A stretch of 64,000 nt of DNA from Deltaproteobacteria bacterium (GTDB lineage Bacteria > Myxococcota_A > UBA796 > GCA-2862545): NCBI GenBank assembly GCA_007693595.1, contig REDI01000010.1, positions 1 through 64,000 on the forward strand, read 5' to 3'. This document shows, one piece after another, positions 14,756 through 21,112 of the stretch (its first letter is position 1; every line of letters starts with the position of its first letter). A program made the position numbers and the translations under genes. The notes under the pieces are model-generated. The model was not told where the DNA came from. It worked only from the letters and a program-made list of their open reading frames with translations, and searched no databases.

Positions 14756-17700
14756 ATGTCAGCGCTCCTCCATCAAGCTCGGGCCCTGCGTGAGCGAGGG
14801 CAGCCTTGGGCCGGGCTCGGCGGCGATGCCCTCGCCTTCGTCCTCGCGCAGCTCTGCCCGGGTGGACGCTGGCTGGTGGTGGTCGATGAGCCCGATCGCG
14901 CGGACGCGATGGTGCGCGCTCTTCGCTTCCTTCACCCCGACCCGAGCCAGATCGCCTACTTCGCCGTCGATGACGCGCGTCCCTACGACGGCTTCTCGCC
15001 CAGCGCCGCAGCTCCCCGAGCTCGACTCCACGCGCTCCACCGCGTCGACGCCGGTCGACCGAGCCTCGTGGTGGCGTCGGCGCGGGCGCTGCTCAAGCGC
15101 GTCCCAGGTCCTGCGGATCGAGTCCGGCTGCGGTGCAGGCTCAAGGTCGGGCAGCGCATCGATCGGGCGGATCTTGCGCGCTGGCTGCGCGGGGCGGGCT
15201 ACCTCGCGGCGGAGCACGCGGTCGAGGAAGGCTTCTTCGCTGTCCGAGGAGATGTGGTGGATGTCTGGCCCGCCGGCCGGAGTCTACCCTTCCGCATCGA
15301 CTTCTTCGATGACGAGATCGAGGCGATCCGAAGCCTCGACCCCTCGACCCGGCGGAGCGTCGACCGGCGGGAAGGCGCGACGCTGCTCGCGGCGCGTGAA
15401 GAGCTCCTCGACGAGCGGGCGCTACGTCGCGCCCAGGCCGAGCTGGCCCGCCATGCCGTCGCCCAAGGGGTCGACGGTCGGCTCCGGCGCCGTGTGCTCG
15501 AAGATCTGCGGGCGGGGATCCGGTTCGCCGGCCTTCAAGACTGGCTCCCAGCCTTGGTCGAGGTCCAAGATCCCCTCGACGCCTTCGCGGGCTTCCAGCG
15601 CGTCATCGTCCATCCCGAGGACGTGGCGGCGGTGATCCGCGACGGCGCGCGGACGATTCAGGATCGGTACCGTGCCTTAGACCTCGAGGATCGTCCGATC
15701 GTCCCGCCCGAGAGCACCTTCTGCGCGGCCGATGACGTCCTAGCGGCCTTGGAGTCGGCCCAGGTCGTTCAGGACGTGCCACGGGACCGGCGACACGATC
15801 TCGGCGCGAGGCGACCGGATGGGCTCGCGGTGCGTGGCGTCGAGCTCGCGCCGGTGGTCGCCCGGCTGCGCGAGCTCGCGGAGGAGGGCGTCTCGGTCGG
15901 GATCGTCTGTGCGACCGACCGGAGGGTCGAACATCTCCGAGAGCTGCTGGGCGCGCACGGTCTCTTCCCGGATTTCGTGCCCGGTCCGTCCTCCCTGCCT
16001 CCGTCTGAGGTCAGCCTCCTCCTCGGTGATCTCCCCCGGGGCTTCGTGGCCGAGGATGCGAAGATCGCCCTGATTCCCGACACGTCGCTCTTCGGCCATC
16101 GGGCACGCCGGGCGGTGGCCGACCGCATCCACGCCTTCTTCGACGCGGGCCTCACCGAGATCTCGCAGATCAAGGAAGGCGACTACGTCGTGCACAAGAT
16201 CCACGGGGTCGGGCGGTACGAAGGCATGGATCGCATGGCGGTCGGGGCCTCGGAGCAGGACTACGTGAGGATCGGCTATCGGGGCGGCGATATGATGTAC
16301 CTACCCGTTGCCCGCCTCGGGCAGCTCTCGCGGTACGTGCCGACCAAGGAAGGGGCCGAGGTGCGCTTGGATCGCCTCGGTGGGCAGACATGGGAAGCCC
16401 GAAAAGGCAAGGTGCGCGATAGCTTGTTGCGCATGGCCGAGGAACTCCTGCGGATCCACGCGGCGCGGGAGCTCTCGACGCGGCTCCCTCACGCGCCAGC
16501 GGGGGATCTCTACCATGCCTTCGTGGCGCGCTTTCCCTACGATGAGACCCCCGACCAAGCCTTGGCGATCGACGCCGTGATGGAGGATCTCTCGAGCGAA
16601 GCCCCGATGGACCGGCTGCTCTGTGGAGACGTCGGGTTCGGAAAGACCGAGGTCGCGATGCGAGCTGCAGCACGGGTGGTCGGAGGCGGGCGCCAGGTCG
16701 CGGTGCTCTGTCCGACCACGGTGCTCGCTTACCAGCACCGACAGACCTTCGCGGAGCGCTTCGAGGGCCTGCCTGTGAGGATCGGCCTGCTGTGCCGCTT
16801 CAACTCCCCTGCGGAAGACAAGGAAGTTCGACGCGCCCTTCGACGGGGCGAGATCGACATCGTTATCGGAACGACGGCCCTTCTCGGTCGAGGGATCCGC
16901 TATGCCGATCTCGGCCTGATGGTGGTCGATGAGGAGCACCGCTTCGGCGTGCGCCAGAAAGAGCGCCTCAAGAAGCTCCGAGCCGAGGTCGATGTCTTGT
17001 CGATGTCCGCCACGCCCATCCCGCGCACGCTCCAGATGGGCCTCTCGGGCATGCGCGAGATGTCCTTGATGTCGACGCCACCCAGGGATCGCCTCGCGGT
17101 TCGGACCTCGACAGCGTCCTTCAAGAAGGCGCGTGTTCGCGACGCCATCCTGCTCGAGATCGAGCGGGGAGGGCAGGTCTTCTTTGTGCACAACCGGGTC
17201 GAGACCCTCCAGCAGGTCGCCGATCGCCTCAAGTCCTGGGTGCCGGAGGCGACCTTCGCGGTCGCTCATGGGCAACAGAGTGCGCAGGATCTCGAGGACA
17301 CCCTGATCGCCTTCACGCTCAAGAAGGTCGATGTTCTCGTCTGTACCGCGATCATGGAGACGGGAATCGATCTGCCCAACGTCAACACCATGATCGTGGA
17401 TCGGGCGGACCGCTTTGGGCTAGCCCAGCTCTACCAGCTCCGCGGACGAGTCGGCAGGGGCAGCGTTCGGGCCCAGTGCCTCCTCTTGCTCCCCGAAGAC
17501 GCCACGCGGGATGCGCGGCGAAGGGTGCAGGTCATGGTCGAGCACACCAGCCTGGGGTCGGGTTTCCAGATCGCCGCGGCGGATCTCGAGATGCGCGGAG
17601 CGGGCAACCTGCTCGGCGAGGCCCAGAGCGGGAACATCGACGCGGTCGGCTATGAGGTCTGGCTGGAGCTGCTCGAAGAGGCGGTCCAGCGTGCGCAGGG

Positions 17701-18178
17701 GAGGCTCGGGGCGGCTCGGGTCGAGACCGAGGTCGAGATCCCGGTGCCCGCCTTCATTCCCCAAGAGATGGTTCCCGATCCGCAGCTTCGCCTCGCGTGG
17801 TATCGGCGCTTCTCCGATGCACAGAGCCCGGCTCAGGTCGAGCGCGCCCTAGACGAGCTCGAGCTGGAGCACGGTCGGATCCCGGTCGAAGTCCAGAACC
17901 TGGTCGGGCTTCTGATCACCCAGCTTCAGGGGCGTCAGATCGGACTCACCCGCATCTCGTGGCTCAAGGTCCGGGTCCTCTTCGAGTTCCATCCGGGCAG
18001 CGCGGCCCTCGGCCCTGAGCTTCATGCCCTCGTCGCGAGGATGCCCAAGCGGCTCGCGCTCGAAGGAGGGCGAGAGGACGCGCCCGTCGTGCTCTCGGCA
18101 CGGTTCGAGCCCTCCGAGGCCGAGCGACCCTTCCGCTTCCTTCGATGGCTCTTGGCCCAGCTCGGGGCTCGGGGCTAG
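14756..18178 (+). CDS. mfd: Transcription-repair coupling factor Mfd
   Basis: 1140 residues, the usual Mfd length. It removes RNA polymerase stalled at DNA lesions and recruits UvrA. Domains in order: UvrB-like N-terminus (about 20-330); CarD/RNAP-interacting domain starting near residue 471 with KEGDYVVHKIHGVGRYEG; SF2 translocase with Walker A GDVGFGKT (about 624-631) and DEEH box near 725; RecG-like motor half including the GRVGR motif; C-terminal TRCF domain that masks UvrA binding. All motor motifs are intact. The ATG at 14756 has no strong ribosome site, but the next residues match the expected N-terminus. It is the last protein gene before the long region without protein genes. Confidence 0.97.
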   Translation: MSALLHQARALRERGQPWAGLGGDALAFVLAQLCPGGRWLVVVDEPDRADAMVRALRFLHPDPSQIAYFAVDDARPYDGFSPSAAAPRARLHALHRVDAGRPSLVVASARALLKRVPGPADRVRLRCRLKVGQRIDRADLARWLRGAGYLAAEHAVEEGFFAVRGDVVDVWPAGRSLPFRIDFFDDEIEAIRSLDPSTRRSVDRREGATLLAAREELLDERALRRAQAELARHAVAQGVDGRLRRRVLEDLRAGIRFAGLQDWLPALVEVQDPLDAFAGFQRVIVHPEDVAAVIRDGARTIQDRYRALDLEDRPIVPPESTFCAADDVLAALESAQVVQDVPRDRRHDLGARRPDGLAVRGVELAPVVARLRELAEEGVSVGIVCATDRRVEHLRELLGAHGLFPDFVPGPSSLPPSEVSLLLGDLPRGFVAEDAKIALIPDTSLFGHRARRAVADRIHAFFDAGLTEISQIKEGDYVVHKIHGVGRYEGMDRMAVGASEQDYVRIGYRGGDMMYLPVARLGQLSRYVPTKEGAEVRLDRLGGQTWEARKGKVRDSLLRMAEELLRIHAARELSTRLPHAPAGDLYHAFVARFPYDETPDQALAIDAVMEDLSSEAPMDRLLCGDVGFGKTEVAMRAAARVVGGGRQVAVLCPTTVLAYQHRQTFAERFEGLPVRIGLLCRFNSPAEDKEVRRALRRGEIDIVIGTTALLGRGIRYADLGLMVVDEEHRFGVRQKERLKKLRAEVDVLSMSATPIPRTLQMGLSGMREMSLMSTPPRDRLAVRTSTASFKKARVRDAILLEIERGGQVFFVHNRVETLQQVADRLKSWVPEATFAVAHGQQSAQDLEDTLIAFTLKKVDVLVCTAIMETGIDLPNVNTMIVDRADRFGLAQLYQLRGRVGRGSVRAQCLLLLPEDATRDARRRVQVMVEHTSLGSGFQIAAADLEMRGAGNLLGEAQSGNIDAVGYEVWLELLEEAVQRAQGRLGAARVETEVEIPVPAFIPQEMVPDPQLRLAWYRRFSDAQSPAQVERALDELELEHGRIPVEVQNLVGLLITQLQGRQIGLTRISWLKVRVLFEFHPGSAALGPELHALVARMPKRLALEGGREDAPVVLSARFEPSEAERPFRFLRWLLAQLGARG

Positions 18179-18207: not shown

Positions 18208-18330
18208 GCCTTGTGAAACAGATTGCTCGAAGGCATATGTCTTTGTTAGATGACTGTTTTTGCGTCATGCTTGCCCCAGATGTGCGGAGAGTGGGGCACG
18301 GCCGGATGCGCTCATGTGCAAATGATTTCT

Positions 18331-18343
18331 AGACGAATCGTCT
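18331..18343. promoter_or_regulatory. Palindrome upstream of sigma-54 promoter
   Basis: AGACGA-A-TCGTCT is a perfect 6+6 inverted repeat centred about 63 bp upstream of the predicted start site. Sigma-54 promoters need an activator bound upstream, and such palindromes are typical activator sites, though these are usually farther away (80-150 bp). Its role is inferred only from position and symmetry. Confidence 0.35.
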
Positions 18344-18373: not shown

Positions 18374-18390
18374 TTGGCACGCCGCATGCA
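18374..18390 (+). promoter_or_regulatory. Sigma-54 (-24/-12) promoter of the giant RNA
   Basis: TTGGCACGCCGCATGCA matches the RpoN consensus TTGGCACG-N4-TTGCW at 12 of 13 defined positions. The invariant GG (18376-18377) and GC (18388-18389) are exactly 10 nt apart. It lies in non-coding DNA about 200 bp after mfd and points into the hairpin-rich region. The predicted transcription start is about 18400. This is the best match of its kind I noticed in the window; a similar TTGGCACG at 33315 inside a gene lacks the -12 GC. Confidence 0.7.
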
Positions 18391-18949
18391 CTATGTCTCC
18401 GTGCAGCCGGTCGAGCCGGTGAGCGACCGACGGGAGCATCCCGGCGATCCTCACTGTCGATTCAGGCAGGAGGGTCTTCGGGCCGTCCACGCGCTCTTTG
18501 ACGTCAAAAACTCCATGGAGGGTGGTGACCCTGCCGTCCTGTCGCGCTTCGCGGCCCTCGGGCAACGAAACCAGGACAGTATTCACCTACTCATCGGTCG
18601 GACAGACCTGCTGCCTCAGGCATAGACGAGTCCTCGTCTCAGCCCAAGGCGCGCTCTCGCAGCGCACGGCAACCCGCCCCTCACCTGAGGGCCGCGAGCC
18701 GGGGTAGGGGATCGCACGAGAGATCGTGTAGCGATGCGATGGGGAAGACCTCGAAGGAGTCCAAAGCCCATGGAAGGACAGGGTCTCTAGCGGCGGCAAC
18801 GCCTCTAGAGCGCTACGGACTCGTCGACGGAGCAAAGCCTTGAAGGTGAACGCTCCAGCCTGAGCATCGCTCGGGTAAGCGGCGCAAGTCCTGAAGATTG
18901 GCAGCGGAAACGCCCGCCTCTCGGAGGGAGGAGTGGTCGCGCGAACCGA

Positions 18950-19011
18950 GGTGGCTTCGGCCATTCGATTCGCACGGTACGACGAGACGCGATGTTCGAT
19001 GGCTTCGGCCA
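18950..19011 (+). other. Twin UUCG hairpins in the giant RNA
   Basis: TGGC-TTCG-GCCA occurs twice (18952-18963 and 19000-19011), 48 nt apart. Each has the C(UUCG)G closing pair. Flanking sequence is also partly shared (ATTCGAT / GTTCGAT), suggesting an internal duplication of an RNA arm. Confidence 0.6.
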
Positions 19012-19069
19012 GCAGCCTGCGTAGGGCTGTCTCGATGCATCGCGCGCGGCCCCAGGGCCGCAGCACGCG

Positions 19070-19091
19070 GCATCTCCCCGGTAGGAGATGC
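19070..19091 (+). other. 8-bp perfect hairpin in the giant RNA
   Basis: GCATCTCC pairs with GGAGATGC across a CCGGTA loop. A second perfect stem, GCGGCC/GGCCGC near 19046-19061, lies just upstream. Both fit a continuous structured RNA. Confidence 0.6.
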
Positions 19092-19235
19092 GCGTGAGCC
19101 CCGAAGTTGGAGTCAGAGATGCTCCGCCGAGGGGTGGGTTCCAGCGCTGATCGAGCGCTTGAGGACAAGTCGGGTATCCGGCACCGACCAGTAAGTTCCC
19201 TGATTTTCTGGTCGAAGGCTGTGTCTAGGCGCAGC

Positions 19236-19267
19236 GTTGTGCACACTTGCCCCACAGGTTGTGCACA
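19236..19267 (+). repeat. Direct repeat GTTGTGCACA, two copies 22 bp apart
   Basis: Copies at 19236-19245 and 19258-19267. TTGTGCACA resembles high-GC DnaA boxes (TTGTCCACA) with one change, and each copy holds a GTGCAC palindrome. In the RNA they could also act as self-complementary kissing sequences. Neither use is established. Confidence 0.5.
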
Positions 19268-19440
19268 GGTCTGATGGCGCGACGGCGTCTCAGCGCGCAT
19301 GCCCCTTGGGGTGTGTGCCTCGCACCCGCGGACTGCGGCGGAGCGAGCGGGAGTCTTGGCCTTGGCCAGGGCGGAGCAGAGTCCTCTCTCGGGAGGGCGA
19401 AGCAGCGGCGAAGTCACCTCCCTGGGGGGCTTCGTCGAGG

Positions 19441-19629
19441 GATCTTCGGATCGCGAAGGGGTGGCGACACCTCGACCCCGAGAGGTATCGAGACCTCTCG
19501 GAGGAGGCTTCGCTTCGGCGAAGAACCAGGGCCTCGGCAGCTACGCAGGGTGCCGAGCAGGGATCTTCAGCGGCGGCTGAAGGTCAGGTCAAGACTTAGG
19601 TCCTGACCGCATCGGGCGTGTCCCGATGC
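19441..19629 (+). other. Run of seven consecutive perfect hairpins in the giant RNA
   Basis: In 189 nt there are seven stems almost end to end: 4-bp UUCG (19441-19452), 9-bp CCGAGAGGT/ACCTCTCGG (19478-19501), 6-bp UUCG (19508-19523), 7-bp (19533-19557), 7-bp with GGCG loop (19565-19582), 7-bp GGTCAGG/CCTGACC (19582-19608, sharing one base with the previous stem) and 8-bp GCATCGGG/CCCGATGC (19609-19629). Coding DNA would not be expected to show this density. It is the strongest local evidence for RNA structure. Confidence 0.75.
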
Positions 19630-19801
19630 CTCGAATGGGAGCGTCCCGGGCCCCATCCGTGAGCGCCGCATAGGCGGTAGCAGGAGTGTTTCGACGGTCA
19701 TCTCGGGTCGTCGTGCACGAGGCTGGCTCCGGCCAGTCGCTTCTTATCGAAGCACGCTCTCTTGGCGTTCCGGGCCGAGGGAGGCTGGCTCTGGGCCAGC
19801 A

Positions 19802-19885
19802 CCCGCGCGAGCGGGAGGCAGGCGACTCGTCGCCTACGGAGTCATCACCGCGTGGTGTGATGGGCAGCACTCGACCTCGGTCGAG
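19802..19885 (+). other. Hairpin block with GNRA and CUCG tetraloops
   Basis: CCCGC-GCGA-GCGGG (19802-19815, GNRA loop), AGGCGA-CTCG-TCGCCT (19820-19835) and CTCGAC-CTCG-GTCGAG (19870-19885) are perfect stems with stable RNA tetraloops. Two of the loops are identical CUCG. Confidence 0.65.
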
Positions 19886-20734
19886 GGGCTGCAAGTCGGA
19901 GCTTAGCATCCGGCGACCTGCGAGAAGACCTGGCCAAGGTTCATCGCAGCGGGGGCTCAGCTCTCGGGCTGGGCGAGCTTCCGAGCTCACAGGGGTGCCT
20001 CGGCTTCGAGGCTCAGGGGCCGGCCTTCATCCGGTCAGCCAAGATTGCGGCGTGCTCTACGCTGTGATCGGAGCGAGGGTGCCAACGACCTCGTCTCCTC
20101 TCCAGCAATGGAGGTTGGACAGACCTTCGGGTCGAACTCAGGCGGCCTTCGGTCGCTACAAGCGCGCGCACTCGAGGCGCGTGGGGAGCCGCATCGGTCT
20201 TCGGAACGAGCGACTCACCATAGAGCAGGACGGGCGCATCGCGCCGGATCGACGTCCGCCGCTCTTCGGAGCGGATCGCCCCAGAGTCTCGACTCAGGGG
20301 TGTCGTATCGAGGAGTGCAACATCAAGAAGGCAAGGGCTGCGGCGACGCAGTACGGCTGTTGACGAGTGGAATTCTTTGAAGGGTCCGAAAGGTGTCGCG
20401 GGGGCAGCTCCTCCCGAGTCTGGCAGCGAGAGCTGTCGGGCACGAAGCGAGCCGAAACGCGACGAACCCCATAGCTGGCAGCGGGATGCAACAAGCCCGC
20501 GGAGCCTGAGCGGAGTAAGGCGTCGAGGTGGTGAGAAACCACGAGGACGTAACGAGATGGTGCGGTGTGGCAGCTGCACCCCGAAGCTGACCTCGGTCGG
20601 CGGGAGTGGACGCACAGGTCGTGAAGCGGAATCACATCACCACAGCGCGAAAGCCTCCTCTTCGGGGGAGCCTGAGCGAGATGGCGGTGGCCGTGACACG
20701 CGAACGGCAGAGGGGACCTGAGAACGGACGAAGC

Positions 20735-20775
20735 GTGAGCCGGAGCGACCCAGAGATGGGTGGCGAAGGGCTCAC
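20735..20775 (+). other. Composite stem with internal loop and GAGA tetraloop
   Basis: Outer helix GTGAGCC/GGCTCAC (20735-20741 with 20769-20775) encloses a purine-rich internal loop and an inner helix ACCCA/TGGGT capped by GAGA, a GNRA loop. The layout recalls tertiary-contact arms of large ribozymes. I checked it against group II intron domain V, and it does not fit. Confidence 0.6.
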
Positions 20776-21005
20776 AAGAGACCTCGGTGATGCGCGAGAG
20801 CGGTTCCCAAGGTCATGCAGGGCGACGCGGAGCTTCGGCTCCGAAAGAACCGCCCGGTCAAGCCCACGAGAGGAGGCGTCGGAGACGGCGTAAACCTGAG
20901 GTGGTCTGCGGGGAAAGCCAATGACCCGCGCCGGATGGTGTCTTAGTCAAGCTCACACCGATTCAGGTTGGTGTTTGCTCGTCTCCTGGTAGTCTAAGGC
21001 TGCTC

Positions 21006-21021
21006 ACGCGCGGATGCGCGT
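21006..21021 (+). other. Hairpin near 3' end of the giant RNA
   Basis: ACGCGC-GGAT-GCGCGT is a perfect 6-bp stem with a GGAT loop, about 55 nt before the terminator hairpin. A GCCGAG/CTCGGC long stem (21026-21031 with 21060-21065) fills the space between. Confidence 0.5.
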
Positions 21022-21074
21022 TCCAGCCGAGTGTCTCTCTTCGTCCTGTCCTCCATCGGCTCGGCATGCTGCAG

Positions 21075-21112
21075 CGCCCCGTTCGGGTTCATCCCGCGCG
21101 GGGCGTTTTTTT
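21075..21112 (+). terminator. Strong intrinsic terminator of the giant RNA
   Basis: CGCCCCG (21075-21081) pairs with CGGGGCG (21099-21105), with an inner CGGG/CCCG stem, and is followed at once by seven T residues (21106-21112). The T-run is on the plus strand, so it ends a rightward transcript. On the minus strand no T-run follows the hairpin, so it does not serve the convergent lipoprotein gene. No protein gene on the plus strand lies in the preceding 2.9 kb. Confidence 0.88.

Follow-up and report, generated by a model that had tools for sequence, protein, structure and literature searches.

A structured, untranslated RNA gene of 2.7 kb with a sigma-54 promoter and its relatives: a probable new family of very large bacterial RNAs

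Very few structured bacterial RNAs besides rRNA come near 1 kb in length, and the functions of OLE, GOLLD and ROOL are unsettled. OLE is about 600 nt long and is found mostly in Bacillota (PMC12054373); it binds several proteins (PMC12286853). The solved ROOL RNA measures 659 nt, and many different phages and prophages encode ROOL (PMC12286853). GOLLD and ROOL assemble into RNA-only nanocages, no protein partner of ROOL having been identified, and RNA-only assemblies are formed by OLE as well (PMC12286853).

The RNA gene described here could not be placed among these or other known RNAs. Rfam 15 covariance models gave no gathering-score match in the window (the whole stretch of 64,000 nt that was analyzed) or in 15 relative loci, and at E values up to 10 the window returned only chance-level matches of unrelated families. 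Membership by Rfam model was met neither for GOLLD, ROOL, OLE or HEARO nor for group I or II introns, rRNA, RNase P, tmRNA or any other Rfam RNA. The phage or prophage association that marks GOLLD and ROOL was not met either: blastn found no match in 50,697 phage records, there was none in plasmid records, and the core motif was not found in viral contigs, a weak test that used the exact pattern only. Since none of the tests for a known RNA family was passed, we regard the gene as representing a new family, akin to the ornate large RNAs only in kind. No description of it was found in the open-access literature on large structured RNAs in the phylum, and the suggestion of an undescribed system, made in a preliminary description of this DNA, stands in so far as Rfam holds no match in the window or the 15 relative loci.

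The gene lies on the plus strand at about 18401-21112 (about 2.7 kb), between mfd (14756-18178, +) and the next called gene. We confirm it as a structured non-coding RNA gene; transcription itself has not been shown, there being no RNA-seq. Its limits are set by a promoter and a terminator, by paralogues of 2.66-2.71 kb that align with it end to end and by duplicates in relatives that share the same bounds. The preliminary description had seen no plausible protein frame, and had named codon-like substitution in homologues as a sign that would refute an RNA. Codon scoring gave no coding signature on either strand: all ORFs of at least 80 aa in the three copies of this genome scored about zero or below, the best of them +0.004 per codon, whereas called genes had a median of 0.22 and a 5th percentile of 0.11. 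The same description had listed at least eight C(UUCG)G stems with a strand bias, together with GNRA tetraloops, and counting agreed on each point. Nine C(UUCG)G stems of at least 4 bp were found on the plus strand of the RNA and none on the minus strand (0.09 expected on the plus strand from dinucleotide shuffles, maximum 2), and there were 10 GNRA stems on the plus strand versus 2.5 expected. The UUCG stems listed earlier fall mostly in a fast-evolving part of the gene, the conserved cores being located elsewhere.

A DNA search revealed two diverged paralogues in this genome, one on contig C5 and one on C95 (2.66 and 2.71 kb; 70-72% identity), with 6 and 5 C(UUCG)G stems on the plus strand. 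The three copies are homologous from end to end; identity is mostly 60-80% in the outer (5' and 3') parts, and the middle has 32-76%. Two covariance models were built separately, R1 from the 3' core (20453-20556) and R2 from a 5' block (18746-18855). R1 matched 33 of the 63 genomes of the order, with E values down to 1e-26, and 64 of 379 genomes (about one sixth) across the phylum, which is probably Myxococcota, an inference from the NCBI taxonomy of the record name on several matching contigs. R2 matched 31 of the 63 order genomes and never occurred alone; in the two genomes with R1 only (G014 and G032) the R1 match lies near a contig edge. Wherever the contig was long enough, both models matched on a common contig and strand and in a common order. 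Six R1 matches in genome G066 were the most seen in any genome. About half of the order's genomes, many of them incomplete, lack the family, so it does not belong to the core RNAs of the cell.

The conclusion that this is an RNA rests on covariation, which was scored against shuffled and slid controls. A search for compensatory changes in homologues, proposed as a check by the preliminary description, found them in abundance. For the core, block D, a plain MAFFT alignment of 20 sequences had 98.9% of its cells paired and 34 two-sided changes versus 6.8 in shuffled versions, and slid versions of the structure in the same alignment were 27-41% paired. In 60 distinct sequences 99.4% of cells were paired and 13 of 14 pairs had two-sided changes (195 versus 46.8); this larger alignment was fitted to the model, so the 20-sequence test is the cleaner of the two. 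Block B, in 38 distinct sequences, was 80.9% paired versus 50.6% when shuffled and about 40% when slid, with 113 compensatory changes versus 44.2. For the 1.46 kb middle of the gene, the pairs predicted from a single paralogue were checked against another. Those of C5 placed onto C95 were 83% paired versus 39-44% slid, and 67 of 87 two-sided changes kept the pair; the same test with the window copy, which is more diverged, gave 58-63% versus 38-47%. G-U pairs are frequent and, together with UUCG loops on the plus strand only, indicate an RNA read from that strand. The folding energy of the conserved core, taken as a single sequence, was not unusual (z = -0.72), hence covariation and not minimum free energy is the proof. 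This ordinary energy, and the fact that the region is an intergenic stretch in a draft assembly, are what could be said for a decayed coding region or for hairpins that act at the DNA level. We consider such an origin practically ruled out, because both covariation tests of core D contradict it, as do the G-U pairs, the strand-specific UUCG loops, the conserved promoter and the terminators.

Along the transcript, conserved blocks alternate with stretches of variable length. Block B (18746-18855, +; R2 E value 3.2e-21 at this site) is composed of hairpins with variable stems and carries a GGAGCAA motif that recurs in block D. It is followed by the middle expansion of about 1.46 kb (18856-20318, +), structured and fast-evolving according to the paralogue alignment, the structure test and the gap lengths, and shorter or absent in relatives. 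Block C (20320-20385, +; nhmmer, 35 loci) precedes core block D (20453-20556, +; R1 E value 4.2e-26), whose model helices are 20481-20485/20496-20500, 20520-20524/20546-20550 and 20528-20531/20539-20542, and block E (20802-20929, +; nhmmer, 18 loci) lies towards the 3' end. In relatives only the blocks are conserved and the distances between them vary, with block order kept; the gap from B to C is 7-833 nt in relatives and about 1460 nt in this genome. The estimated length from start site to terminator is 0.99-1.8 kb in relatives and 2.65-2.71 kb in the three copies of this genome. The size of 2.7 kb in the preliminary description is therefore right for this genome, which has the expanded form, and does not extend to the relatives, at about 1.0-1.8 kb. 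A motif GGAGNAA-CC is common to blocks B and D, and R1, the model of the 3' core, also matches block B at L033:2834-2954 (-) with an E value of 4.5e-7 and, more weakly, at L119:2306-2455 (+); this suggests that the RNA contains an internal repeated module.

Such modularity, with conserved blocks set between variable inserts, would also suit a precursor that is processed into several smaller regulatory RNAs, and sigma-54-driven small RNAs with paralogues, such as Qrr and GlmY, are known. However, the blocks keep their order, B is found together with D, and structure is conserved in the middle as well; we find a precursor of this kind quite improbable. A large ribozyme deserves slightly more credit and is still unlikely: the cores hold highly conserved unpaired nucleotides, as large catalytic RNAs do, but no catalytic Rfam family was matched and there is no splice or cleavage context.

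The sigma-54-like promoter and the intrinsic terminator noted earlier on the plus strand were both recovered as features common to many members. The promoter, TGGCACGCCGCATGCA at 18375-18390 (+), is of the -24/-12 type, with a start site inferred at about 18401, one base from the start given originally. The pattern TGGCAC-N5-[CTA]TGC[AT] was found upstream of the core in 29 loci (0.7 expected), 395-2079 nt before it, and the feature expected of a sigma-54-dependent RNA gene, a -24/-12 promoter upstream, is thus present. About 40 nt above the promoter many members carry the palindrome TGGGAA-N6-TTCCCA, and a weaker second one frequently lies beyond it. In the window's own genome this putative upstream activating site is degenerate (18315-18332, +) and was recognized from the alignment upstream of the promoter, being intact in many relatives. 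The combined pattern of palindrome and promoter gave 12 matches in 22 genomes, at RNA genes, and 0 in the control. Intact copies of the palindrome alone, searched in 15 genomes, were essentially all at RNA genes, and the site on contig C9 of G046 turned out to mark one more RNA promoter, located where a contig ends. One palindrome (L150:1501-1518, equal to G049:C7:3983-4000) lies behind an RNA core, inside or just past the RNA, and not upstream of that gene's promoter. A motif scan for an enhancer-binding protein among the flanking genes gave two loci only, with no enrichment. The terminator, a GC stem followed by TTTTTTT (21074-21112, +), was identified from the sequence, and in relatives the homology between duplicates ends soon after the T-run; in many members terminators are found about 400-830 nt after the core.

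Downstream of the promoter, 28 of 36 members carry a boxA-like element GNTCTTTGACGT (0.1 expected), seen in the window as GCTCTTTGACGT at 18493-18504 (+). With the adjoining CAAAAACYCC it makes up conserved block A (18493-18524, +; nhmmer, 16 loci). In the 28 leaders the element has the form TCTTTGACGT, once TCTTTGAACGT, and it is missing in some distant members. BoxA is the Nus-factor site that shields rRNA from Rho (PMC4807359, PMC5725501); its gamma-proteobacterial consensus is GYTCTTTAANA (PMC5725501), and a boxA in front of CRISPR arrays has likewise been proposed (as reported in PMC7862264). By sequence, a boxA is present in the leader here, differing from the gamma-proteobacterial consensus after TCTTT. 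Since the rrn leaders of this genome and of two members of the order (16S leaders L141, L138 and L140) carry GNTCTTTGAAA, a boxA variant, the element is most simply read as boxA; TCTTTGA was not found in the 16S leader L139 of G004. This identification depends on sequence and position alone, and binding of NusB/S10 and resistance to Rho are inferred. Many members have a short hairpin directly 5' of the box. RNAalifold returned no consensus structure for a MAFFT alignment of the 5' leader, and these hairpins are accordingly described by inspection of individual sequences only.

The gene neighbourhood gives no constant partner: 156 Pfam families occurred among 103 flanking proteins and none of them in more than four, so that no function is common to the flanking genes. 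Proximity to mfd, recommended earlier as a guide to homologues, is not a family feature. The copy in G001, considered as an mfd-adjacent orthologue, was rejected because its neighbour is not Mfd. In four genomes belonging to the window's family (L123, L041, L029 and L030; Pfam TPR confirmed for L123 and L041) the RNA is followed by a gene of one TPR protein family, and an E1 dehydrogenase/transketolase-like gene adjoins or is near the RNA in five genomes of three other families.

Some genomes hold nearly identical copies. Two in G048 (C168/C194; L159 and L101) are 94.5% identical over 1551 nt, and three in G053 (C19/C53/C196; L162, L104 and L163) are 84-90% identical over about 1.2 kb. The homology begins slightly above the palindrome and ends no more than a few tens of bases past the terminator T-run, with unrelated flanks. 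As homology is limited to the unit, the RNA unit was copied by itself or has been kept alike by gene conversion; and as the duplicates end just past the terminator, one rightward unit of 2.7 kb, as originally proposed, is supported. A palindrome-promoter-RNA-terminator unit that copies itself, or is copied, to new sites like a non-autonomous mobile or selfish element would account for these near-identical copies in unrelated surroundings, for up to six copies per genome and for the patchy distribution. Nevertheless, inspection by eye of the duplicates' boundary sequences, whose 5' limits vary, showed neither terminal inverted repeats nor target duplications; no transposase or reverse transcriptase family recurs among the called neighbours; related genomes share the gene neighbourhoods of their copies; and gene conversion, as between rRNA operons, would look alike. 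We thus give a mobile element only a small chance. Old vertical paralogues also exist, since in the genus-g15 genomes G057, G061 and G062 the copies form two groups that differ in sequence and in the distance from promoter to core (630 and 428 nt in G057 and G061), and some lineages retain the neighbours of their copies.

What the genomes contain is a promoter with its palindrome, a boxA-like element, covarying blocks B and D, conserved blocks C and E, inserts of variable size, a terminator and no coding sequence. We consider it likely, the biochemical role remaining unproven, that these parts specify a signal-induced, antiterminated and untranslated RNA of an undescribed, very large structured family, which acts in trans, most likely as a scaffold or structural RNA. 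By inference, an unidentified and largely dedicated sigma-54 enhancer-binding protein would switch the RNA gene or genes on upon a signal, and Nus factors loaded at boxA would, as they do on rRNA operons, guard the polymerase against termination by Rho along 1-2.7 kb of untranslated RNA. The product would then fold into a stable multi-domain particle, its action in trans being likewise inferred. By analogy with OLE, ROOL and GOLLD the particle may be a structural or scaffold RNA, either as an RNP or as an RNA homo-oligomer; this is the most likely role and the weakest inferred step, a ribozyme or antisense regulator being less likely. Expression data, an identified activator, a known partner protein and a phenotype are all lacking, which counts against the explanation as a whole; so do the degenerate palindrome of the window's own genome, the limited basis of the boxA assignment and the absence of the family from about half of the order. 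For a wider version, in which giant RNAs of 1-2.7 kb, structured along their length and equipped with a dedicated sigma-54 activator and boxA, form rRNA-scale particles or a new ribozyme throughout the phylum, we put the chances somewhat above even. If true, the window copy would rank among the largest structured bacterial RNAs other than rRNA and introns. The family is an addition to the few large structured RNAs known in bacteria: unrelated to any Rfam model, it spans the phylum, reaches 2.7 kb and has as many as six copies in one genome, apparently under a sigma-54 activator of its own. The elements common to its members, namely the promoter, the palindrome and the boxA-like element, offer handles for tracing the activator, the signal that induces the RNA and the particle.

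Like GOLLD and ROOL, the members of the new family are large, ornate and untranslated bacterial RNAs of unknown function, but they lack matches to Rfam or to phage records, have a sigma-54 promoter and reach 1.0-2.7 kb. With OLE they have in common that they are chromosomal, conserved, large and of elaborate structure, whereas they match no Rfam model, have no constant neighbour and occur in another phylum. The rRNA operons also give a long, untranslated and structured transcript, with a hairpin and then a boxA-like element near the 5' end; the new RNAs are not rRNA by Rfam and differ in their sigma-54 promoter, their patchy distribution and a conserved ACGT after TCTTTG. Finally, Qrr and GlmY are sigma-54-dependent small RNAs, some with paralogues, that are driven via an enhancer-binding protein and work as base-pairing or decoy RNAs. 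They are far shorter than the structurally conserved RNAs of 1-2.7 kb described here, yet in both cases RNA genes with paralogues are driven by sigma-54.
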